From: Ignavibacteria bacterium
GTDB taxonomy: Bacteria > Bacteroidota > Ignavibacteria > UBA10030
Assembly (NCBI GenBank): GCA_016873805.1
Contig: VGVZ01000007.1
Location: 1-64,000 of the forward strand
Direction of reading: 5' to 3'
DNA length: 64,000 nucleotides
The position numbers and the translations under genes were made by a program. The notes beneath the pieces are model-generated. The model saw only the letters and a list, made by a program, of their open reading frames with translations. It had not been told where the DNA came from and did no database searches. Below, one piece after another: positions 48,653 through 50,638 of the stretch (position 1 is the first letter of the stretch; each line of letters begins with the position of its first letter).

Positions 48653-49033
48653 ATGAAACACATCGGCATCAAAAAGCTCTACTACTCGATCAGTGAAGTG
48701 AGCAAAATCACCGGCCTGGAACAGTACGTTCTCCGGTACTGGGAATCGGAGTTTCCTCAGCTCAAACCGCAAAAGAACAGGGCGGGGAACCGCATTTACA
48801 CCAACAAGGACATCAAGTTGATTTTCCAGATCAAGAAACTGCTCCGCGATGAGATGTACACCATCGAGGGAGCGAAAAAAGTTCTGGAAGATTATGTCCC
48901 GGAAAATGAGGCAGGTGAACAACTCGAGCTGCTCTCCGTCCCTCCAAAGAAGAAGATTCAGGACGAGGAAATTCGGGCGGAAATCACCGAGGTGAAAGAA
49001 TTTCTGGAAGGAATTTTGGAGAAGTTGAAGTAA
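48653..49033 (+). CDS. MerR family transcriptional regulator
   Basis: A 126-residue protein with the MerR winged helix: YYSISEVSKITGLEQYVLRY, WESEFPQLKPQKNRAGNRIY and IKLIFQIKKLLRDEMYTIEG. A long C-terminal helix (EEIRAEITEVKEFLEGILEK) should form the dimer coiled coil; no cysteine or drug-binding effector domain is present, so it is the short single-domain form common in Bacteroidota. It precedes the tRNA-Pro locus. Confidence 0.92.
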   Translation: MKHIGIKKLYYSISEVSKITGLEQYVLRYWESEFPQLKPQKNRAGNRIYTNKDIKLIFQIKKLLRDEMYTIEGAKKVLEDYVPENEAGEQLELLSVPPKKKIQDEEIRAEITEVKEFLEGILEKLK

Positions 49034-49144: not shown

Positions 49145-49173
49145 TTGCACTGAGGGCATTAGTTATGTATTAT
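49145..49173 (+). promoter_or_regulatory. Sigma70-like promoter ahead of the tRNA-Pro locus
   Basis: TTGCAC (49145-49150) and TATTAT (49168-49173) are separated by 17 bp. The box ends 41 bp upstream of the broken tRNA-Pro 5' end at 49215. It is probably the original tRNA-Pro promoter, now separated from the intact tRNA at 49941 by two inserted 363-bp units. Confidence 0.55.
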
Positions 49174-49213
49174 CGTAATGCGCGGGATGGTAGGGGAAAG
49201 ATACTTCATCCGC

Positions 49214-49939
49214 TCGGAACGTGGTCCCGCCGTCATCCTTTGACTTCGCTCAGGATGCGGCGGGATAAACTCCGCCCTGAATGAGACCTGGTAGCGCACT
49301 TGTTCCAAAGGAATCCCGTTGGGACTTGGGGTGCAAGAGAAGAAATACTATGTGTATGTCATCCAGAGTAAGACCAACGGCAGATACTACGTTGATCAGA
49401 CTAAAGATCTAGAGCTGAGACTGAGGAAGCACAATTCGGGGGAATCGAGATCAACGAAGTTTGGCAGACCATGGGATGTGATTCATAAGGAGGAGTTTGA
49501 AACGAGGGGTGAGGCCGTTCGAAGGGAGCGGTTTCTGAAATCTCCCGACGGATGGAACACTCTGAAAAGAATCAAATCGGAACGTGGTCCCGCCGTCATC
49601 CTTTGACTTCGCTCAGGATGCGGCGGGATAAACTCCGCCCTGAATGAGACCTGGTAGCGCACTTGTTCCAAAGGAATCCCGTTGGGACTTGGGGTGCAAG
49701 AGAAGAAATACTATGTGTATGTCATCCAGAGTAAGACCAACGGCAGATACTACGTTGGTCAGACTAAAGATCTAGAGCTGAGACTGAGGAAGCACAATTC
49801 GGGGGAATCGAGATCAACGAAGTTTGGCAGACCATGGAATGTGATTCATAAGGAGGAGTTTGAAACGAGGGGTGAGGCCGTTCGAAGGGAGCGGTTTCTG
49901 AAATCTCCCGACGGATGGAACACTCTGAAAAGAATCAAA
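49214..49939 (+). repeat. Two 363-bp tandem units carrying tRNA-Pro fragments and GIY-YIG ORFs
   Basis: Unit 1 is 49214-49576 and unit 2 is 49577-49939; they differ at only two positions that I could find. Each unit starts with tRNA-Pro 5' sequence (CGGAACGTGG, then GGTAGCGCACTTG, then TTGGGGTGCAAG), interrupted twice: first by about 62 nt containing the hairpin CATCCTTTGACTTCGCTCAG / GATG, a very common FCB repeat, and then by 23 nt. The tRNA similarity then gives way to a GIY-YIG ORF that runs to the end of the unit. The intact tRNA-Pro begins one base after unit 2, exactly where a third unit would begin. Confidence 0.88.
49319..49606 (+). CDS. GIY-YIG nuclease-like protein, copy 1 (motif altered)
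   Basis: A 95-residue single-domain GIY-YIG protein: YYVYVIQSKTNGRYYV, LELRLRKHNSGESRSTKFGR, then EEFETRGEAVRRERFLKSPD. The usual Gly of the second motif is Asp here (YYVDQT against YYVGQT in copy 2), which should damage the active site. There is no ATG; the frame opens at TTG/GTG codons that belong to the broken tRNA (about 49319-49331). The stop lies in the hairpin that begins unit 2. Related small proteins (UvrC-like, YhbQ-like) cluster with mobile elements in FCB genomes. Confidence 0.8.
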   Translation: MGLGVQEKKYYVYVIQSKTNGRYYVDQTKDLELRLRKHNSGESRSTKFGRPWDVIHKEEFETRGEAVRRERFLKSPDGWNTLKRIKSERGPAVIL

Positions 49940-49963
49940 TCGGAACGTGGCGCAGCCCGGTAG
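49682..49963 (+). CDS. GIY-YIG nuclease-like protein, copy 2 (intact motif)
   Basis: A 93-residue protein identical to copy 1 through most of its length, but with the intact motif YYVGQT and Asn in place of Asp in PWNVIHK. Arg26 and Glu residues of the fold (LELRLRKHN, GEAVRRERF) are present. Its 3' end runs into the intact tRNA-Pro: the last residues before the stop (SERGAAR) are translated from tRNA sequence, and the TAG lies in the tRNA D-arm region (49961-49963). This is the likely active copy. Start codon is non-ATG, as for copy 1. Confidence 0.82.
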   Translation: MGLGVQEKKYYVYVIQSKTNGRYYVGQTKDLELRLRKHNSGESRSTKFGRPWNVIHKEEFETRGEAVRRERFLKSPDGWNTLKRIKSERGAAR

Positions 49964-50014
49964 CGCACTTGCTTGGGGTGCAAGGGGTCGCGGGTTCAAA
50001 TCCCGCCGTTCCGA
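49941..50014 (+). tRNA. tRNA-Pro(GGG)
   Basis: A complete cloverleaf can be folded: acceptor CGGAACG with CGTTCCG (50007-50013), D arm GCGC-AGCCCGGTA-GCGC, anticodon arm CTTGC-TTGGGGT-GCAAG with anticodon GGG, and T arm GCGGG-TTCAAAT-CCCGC. The discriminator is A50014 and CCA is not encoded. The 5' end is identical to the fragments that start each 363-bp unit upstream. Confidence 0.95.
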
Positions 50015-50088
50015 CTCCCAATTCGACTGAACTTAACGTTTCTCAGTCAAGTTCACTGTCGAATTGCCCGAAGGGCCCCTTCGGGGAG

Positions 50089-50120: not shown

Positions 50121-50251
50121 AGTGACAGATGCAGCGGGTTTCCCGCACGTGGGGCGGTTGTCACGAGGAGATTGAACCGGAGTTCCTGAACTCCAAAGAG
50201 GAGTCTTTCCCCGCATTCCCAAATCCAGACTCCTCAATCAGCAATCCAGCA

Positions 50252-50638
50252 ATGGAAACAAGAATTCGAAGACGCATCGTCCTTGTCGGTGACAAGGTAC
50301 TAATCTCACCCGATCGTGAGCAGGATCGCACCGCCCACGGCCTGTACCTCCCCCCGGGCGTCAAAGAAAAGGAAAAGGTCCAAAGCGGAATCGTTGTCCA
50401 TGTCGGACCCGGCTATGCTGTCCCCAATCCTCACGCGATGGATCAGGAACCGTGGTCGACAACCCCCAAGGATCCCGTGAAGTATCTTCCGCTGCAAGCT
50501 GAAGAGGGAGATGTCGCGATCTTCCTCAGAGAATCGGCGGTGGAGATCGAATTTGAAGAAGAGCGGTACTTCATCGTCCCCCATTCATCGATACTGATGC
50601 TCGTGCGTAGACGCGACTTCGACGTCTTGGAGCAGTGA
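50252..50638 (+). CDS. GroES-like (Cpn10 family) protein
   Basis: A 128-residue Cpn10-family protein: VLVGDKVLISPDREQDRTAH, GLYLPPGVKEKEKVQSGIVV and HVGPGYAVPNPHAMDQEPW, then DVAIFLRESAVEIEFEEERY and FIVPHSSILMLVR. It is longer than GroES (about 97 residues) because of an extended segment in the middle, and belongs to the divergent Cpn10-like group of Bacteroidota. No groEL gene is adjacent, so whether it caps GroEL is unknown. ATG 50252 starts METRIRRRIV; the upstream open frame to 50129 crosses a hairpin. Confidence 0.85.
   Translation: METRIRRRIVLVGDKVLISPDREQDRTAHGLYLPPGVKEKEKVQSGIVVHVGPGYAVPNPHAMDQEPWSTTPKDPVKYLPLQAEEGDVAIFLRESAVEIEFEEERYFIVPHSSILMLVRRRDFDVLEQ

Follow-up and report, generated by a model that had tools for sequence, protein, structure and literature searches.

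T-even phages encode the free-standing GIY-YIG homing endonuclease SegB (PMC13096335). Its gene lies beside tRNA genes, the enzyme is thought to cut tRNA-containing sequence, a tRNA-segB segment is amplified in tandem through its action, and the tRNA 5' end shares microhomology with the segB 3' end (PMC13096335). Mobile ORFs with duplicated gene ends are also known from fungal mitochondria, namely in atp6 of Allomyces and in atp6, atp9, cox2 and nad3 of Glomus (PMC3630166). In these cases, the element, an endonuclease ORF inserted in a gene, supplies a new end for that gene, and the original end has been pushed to the other side of the element.

Here, we describe two tandem GIY-YIG units beside a tRNA-Pro gene in the window (i.e., the whole 64-kb stretch of DNA that was analysed). 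We consider it likely that the units are minimal mobile elements whose sole gene encodes a tRNA-gene-specific, single-domain GIY-YIG endonuclease, with cleavage and homing being inferred. By analogy, SegB and the fungal mitochondrial ORFs would be the nearest precedents for this inferred homing (PMC13096335; PMC3630166). However, SegB is phage-borne whereas the window's elements are chromosomal, and neither displaced tRNA halves nor double hairpins are described in the available part of that source (PMC13096335). The fungal ORFs occupy protein-coding mitochondrial genes, are larger and are of the LAGLIDADG type with one GIY-YIG case (PMC3630166), whereas the bacterial elements occupy tRNA genes in ~360-bp units and duplicate either half of the gene. 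Searches of an open-access literature library turned up no account of GIY-YIG elements embedded in chromosomal tRNA genes, and our claim of novelty extends no further than that.

Tandem units beside tRNA-Pro(GGG)

The array spanned positions 49214-49939 with a period of 363 and 99% matches, in agreement with the original prediction of two 363-bp units with only two base differences. By eye, these differences were A at 49395 versus G at 49758, and G at 49475 versus A at 49838. As had also been predicted, the intact tRNA-Pro(GGG) started where a third unit would start (Table 1). Each unit opened with three pieces of the tRNA-Pro 5' sequence and then ran into the GIY-YIG ORF, and in both units the pieces were separated first by a 41-nt hairpin with a spacer and then by a second insert. 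The broken tRNA was thus as expected, except that the second insert measured 22 nt instead of 23 nt. A sigma-70-like promoter proposed upstream of unit 1 was not confirmed, as none passed the promoter scan.

Table 1. Positions in the window of the array, its parts and the neighbouring genes.
Feature	Position	Strand
Upstream flanking ORF, presumably MerR-like; used to find orthologous sites	48653-49033	+
Unit 1: displaced tRNA-Pro 5' pieces and GIY-YIG ORF	49214-49576	+
Unit 2: displaced tRNA-Pro 5' pieces and GIY-YIG ORF	49577-49939	+
Displaced tRNA-Pro nt 1-10	49215-49224 (unit 1); 49578-49587 (unit 2)	+
41-nt palindrome in D-arm of displaced tRNA	49225-49265 (unit 1); 49588-49628 (unit 2)	+
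Displaced tRNA-Pro nt 16-31	49287-49302 (unit 1); 49650-49665 (unit 2)	+
Double hairpin of 22 nt, TTCCAAAGGAATCCCGTTGGGA, separating tRNA nt 31 from nt 32	49303-49324 (unit 1); 49666-49687 (unit 2)	+
Displaced tRNA-Pro nt 32-44, with in-frame GTG	49325-49337 (unit 1); 49688-49700 (unit 2)	+
GIY-YIG ORF of unit 1, Gly26->Asp in YxG motif	49319-49606	+
GIY-YIG ORF of unit 2, all catalytic residues kept, stop in intact tRNA	49682-49963	+
Intact tRNA-Pro(GGG)	49941-50015	+
Downstream flanking ORF, which we take to be co-chaperonin GroES-like; probable start 50252	50129-50638	+

Both ORFs matched the Pfam GIY-YIG family (E = 6.6e-19 and 4e-16), and a PF01541 score of 68.4 bits against a cut-off of 22.6 placed the protein in the GIY-YIG superfamily. 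The conserved Tyr, Arg and Glu of this superfamily were present, with Y24, G26, R34 and E70 invariant in 15 relatives. The A at 49395 replaces Gly by Asp at the invariant YxG column in unit 1, whereas G26 is kept in unit 2; the nuclease of unit 1 is probably inactive through this predicted substitution. The start codons and stop had been claimed to lie in tRNA sequence. This was correct for the stop of unit 2 (TAG at 49961-49963, within the D-loop of the intact tRNA) and for the in-frame GTG (49331, 49694), but only partly right overall because the TTG further upstream (49319, 49682) is part of the double-hairpin insert.

In the three closest cross-genome nuclease pairs, dN/dS was 0.06, 0.24 and 0.27, and in these pairs the ORF is, by inference, under purifying selection. 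tRNA genes are common attachment sites, and tRNA pieces occur as direct repeats on either side of the ORF, as could be expected if the tRNA were the attachment site of an integrative element with the GIY-YIG gene as cargo or remnant. Yet the tandem units are only about 320-370 bp long, in many cases it is the 5' half that is repeated, and the units contain no integrase gene but only the GIY-YIG ORF, with its signature of selection in the closest pairs. We find such an origin hardly plausible. A phage or plasmid origin was rejected, as matches were only weak (<60% identical). A self-splicing intron in the tRNA was rejected in view of the intact tRNA beside the ORF, an assessment made without Rfam intron models on the window.

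Related ORFs, displaced tRNA pieces and empty sites

The source genome contained 11 related ORFs and 45 tRNAs in 3.2 Mb, a tRNA density at which about 3% of ORFs would be expected within 1 kb of a tRNA by chance. Among the 93 related ORFs from 32 family genomes, 75 had a tRNA no more than 1 kb away, and for 58 the distance was at most 100 bp. Hence, other GIY-YIG ORFs adjoin tRNAs, as the original prediction suggested should be checked, and its refuting case of relatives at unrelated sites without tRNA sequence did not hold, since most relatives sit in tRNA sequence. Of the family ORFs without a called tRNA that were inspected, most lay where a tRNA is cut off by a contig end or an N-gap. A phylum-wide search covered 148 genomes, of which 74 had a match; the resulting sample of loci also takes in family members. 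Here, 95 of 112 ORFs were within 1 kb of a tRNA, and all 95 were on the strand of that tRNA. The fraction is descriptive only, because the sample was picked by nuclease score, some loci were sampled as arrays and a few stretches were double-counted. Finally, a scan of named genomes yielded 10 relatives, nine of them with a tRNA within about 100 bp, from Patescibacteria, Omnitrophota, Bacteroidota (Cyclobacterium), Chlorobiota, Acidobacteria and an unclassified bacterium. The design seen in the window also occurred in Patescibacteria and Omnitrophota.

Among these inspected family ORFs, non-tRNA targets were rejected as a general rule, the exceptions being a UPF0213-like clade, a clade with CCCCGTGAGATA repeats, and locus L063. 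The UPF0213-like clade (L008, L010, L127 and L130) has no tRNA link; L008 and L010 are paralogues in the same genome as the window's ORFs, which they do not resemble in this respect. The clade of L058, L094 and L112 is flanked by CCCCGTGAGATA-type inverted repeats, not by tRNA pieces. By eye, related GIY-YIG ORFs at L194 (1043-1246) and L172 (1501-1704) apparently lie in the P3 hairpin loop of RNase P RNA, with the stem halves on either side of the ORF and without duplication. Tandem GIY-YIG units ~390 bp apart were observed downstream of the tmRNA gene at L192 (900-2250), where no tmRNA fragment was seen by eye. The ORF at L205 (1098-1313) apparently lies, also by eye, within a transposase-like coding sequence.

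In 84% of 67 loci, a piece of the adjoining tRNA was also present at the opposite end of the ORF, compared with 1.9% for tRNAs of other isotypes and 0.4% for shuffles. The window's form (5' piece, ORF, tRNA; the 3p class) accounted for 30 of the 67 loci. The mirror form (tRNA, ORF, 3' piece; the 5p class), which goes beyond the original prediction, accounted for 37; its logic is that of the fungal mitochondrial ORFs (PMC3630166). Displaced 3' pieces often began around tRNA positions 43-47; of the displaced 5' pieces, several ended close to the anticodon. Some displaced copies were nearly complete tRNAs, so that simple half-duplication is not the only possible history.

Related genomes were also compared for empty tRNA-Pro sites, and these were found at two positions. 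Between miaA and der, genome G028 has an uninterrupted tRNA-Pro(CGG) followed by its native flank. G026 belongs to the same genus, and there a flank with 63 of 70 bases identical to that of G028 follows the displaced 3' half, which implies that the element entered the tRNA and displaced the native 3' half. G007 and G030 are occupied at this site in the same order as G026, with more diverged flanks, and in many further genomes of the family ARAGORN called a tRNA-Pro shortly before der. This patchy occupancy, combined with empty orthologous targets, is what a homing element should display. Occupancy was likewise patchy at the window's own site, where G057 (L039) was empty and G019 (L019) had the window's arrangement. 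Insertion into a tRNA gene with duplication of half of the gene is shown by this comparison, which rests on sequence data alone.

In G005 (L027, 1418-1492), a tRNA-Pro without ORF lies inverted between the same flanking genes, and because of this inversion it does not represent a clean empty site.

The comparison also shows that half of the tRNA is present twice, with one complete copy flanking the ORF and the other half displaced to the far side of the ORF; the tRNA stays functional because of this duplication. We propose that the nuclease would cut a tRNA gene without insert, within or close to its anticodon arm, after which repair against an element-bearing copy would install the ORF together with an extra tRNA half. 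By inference, the unit in the window was then duplicated when the displaced tRNA 5' end recombined with the intact one, with which it shares 11 bp (TCGGAACGTGG), as in other arrays. The order of events, insertion followed by tandem duplication, is inferred. Two points count against homing: no cleavage, homing or transfer has been observed, and it is unexplained why the intact tRNA persists uncut beside the nuclease gene.

Tandem arrays recurred in other assemblies, including three copies in a single-contig genome of 3.67 Mb. The window's assembly has 60 contigs, which leaves some room for the tandem copy to be an assembly artefact. However, the two copies differ at two bases and, given the arrays elsewhere, we attach almost no credence to an artefact, so that the second refuting case of the original prediction does not hold either. 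With the empty site, the displaced pieces and the recurring arrays, the predicted model of insertion in the anticodon-arm region of the tRNA, half-duplication that spares an intact copy, and tandem duplication holds and can be generalised.

At L182 (989-3752), eight GIY-YIG ORFs formed an array with a period of about 365 bp; tRNA 3' pieces and hairpins lay between those copies that were inspected, and no intact tRNA was called in that stretch.

Nuclease tree, fold and target

The family's nuclease tree required 20 changes of tRNA amino acid versus 53 with shuffled labels, and 69 changes of genome versus 68 with shuffled labels. It follows that within the family the nuclease tree appears to track tRNA identity and not the host genome. 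In a tree of the larger set, tRNA amino acid changed 30 times versus 90 in shuffles, and host family 51 times versus 63 (38 versus 44 outside the window's family), which means that host family carries some signal as well. The trees are based on short alignments with many forks left open. Nuclease lineages are specific to their target gene in this respect, although this is partly confounded with orthologous loci: the agreement between tree and tRNA is in part inheritance at such loci.

An enzyme acting on RNA, either a tRNA-cleaving toxin or a tRNA-processing enzyme kept by its cognate tRNA, would also track tRNA identity and be co-oriented with its tRNA. We regard it as very unlikely, for it leaves the duplicated halves, mirror-image classes, empty sites and tandem arrays unexplained.

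The predicted structure (pLDDT 87.9) consisted of a single GIY-YIG domain, and its nearest PDB sequences and folds were GIY-YIG domain proteins of the UPF0213 and SLX1 types, with weaker similarity to I-TevI. Enzymes of the I-TevI type combine a GIY-YIG domain with a separate DNA-binding region. In contrast, the structure model and Pfam indicate one catalytic domain in the 93-aa window protein, without a recognisable separate DNA-binding domain. Lacking such a domain and being closer in fold to UPF0213 and SLX1, the protein leaves its sequence specificity unexplained, which also counts against homing.

The same arrangement at many tRNA genes across distant phyla suggests widespread, little-described minimal selfish elements. 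If our reading of the units as homing elements is true, bacterial chromosomes of several phyla carry selfish genes of less than 400 bp that live in tRNA genes, and the host survives since the element duplicates half of its target tRNA. Such elements would offer clean, cheap tests of how a nuclease of 90 residues finds one tRNA gene, and they may account for many annotations of a 'GIY-YIG nuclease family protein' beside tRNAs.

Palindromes and double hairpins

The core of the 41-nt hairpin had nine imperfect copies elsewhere in the genome and its reversed control had none, which identifies it as an interspersed repeat. From displaced tRNA copies we collected 56 inserts, of which 82% folded at z below -2 relative to mononucleotide shuffles. 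The inserts were often located in tRNA loops, and many were double hairpins (T-stem-loop-stem-A, twice). The displaced half had been thought to decay; it is indeed interrupted, but by palindromes inserted at recurring loop positions rather than by random decay.

The frequency of palindromes in tRNA loops, the nearest solved folds and the rare relatives at RNase P RNA and tmRNA genes would all suit a structure-specific, SLX1/UPF0213-like nuclease that recognises the hairpins or cruciforms which structured RNA genes can form, and not a sequence, with insertion, palindromes and tandem copies as by-products of repair. A purely structure-specific enzyme, however, has no need for a tree that closely tracks tRNA identity, and we judge this alternative unlikely.

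Under a strict definition, fixed after the inserts had been seen, the only double hairpins in the window were the two in the units. Across the 67 loci, the displaced zone contained 0.79 of them per kb and shuffled sequence 0.005; the figure for the remaining sequence was 0.07, due for the most part to further copies within the same arrays. A loose double-hairpin scan gave only chance levels. Strict double hairpins in or next to a displaced tRNA piece also occurred in other phyla (L070, L071 and L075). One 30-nt type was counted in 32 genomes, each with 0-6 copies, most of which lay at other sites and some apparently within coding sequence; double hairpins are therefore not exclusive to GIY-YIG elements.

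The double-hairpin elements of Allomyces mtDNA are likewise small, thought to be mobile and without flanking duplications (Paquin 2000, cited in PMC2800124). Those reported here are bacterial and concentrated in displaced tRNA copies, and the likeness comes without evidence of homology. The role of double hairpins in the GIY-YIG elements is unexplained. They may shield the displaced copy from cutting or from recombinational deletion, or they may themselves be moved by the nuclease. That double hairpins are a working part of cross-phylum minimal selfish elements, which colonise structured RNA genes by means of a one-domain GIY-YIG nuclease, is a doubtful extension of our reading. If they were, bacterial double-hairpin elements would gain a dedicated enzyme; the loci provide an entry point to the unsolved mobility of double-hairpin elements.

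At L137, L144 and L146, 30-nt double hairpins lay in apparent coding sequences in a Pro-Asn-Pro-Phe context, in frame by their length. At L004 (1740-2190), furthermore, hairpin units built on a GACTACGTCCCGA / TCGGGACTTCGTCG core recurred in the open frame upstream of a GIY-YIG domain.
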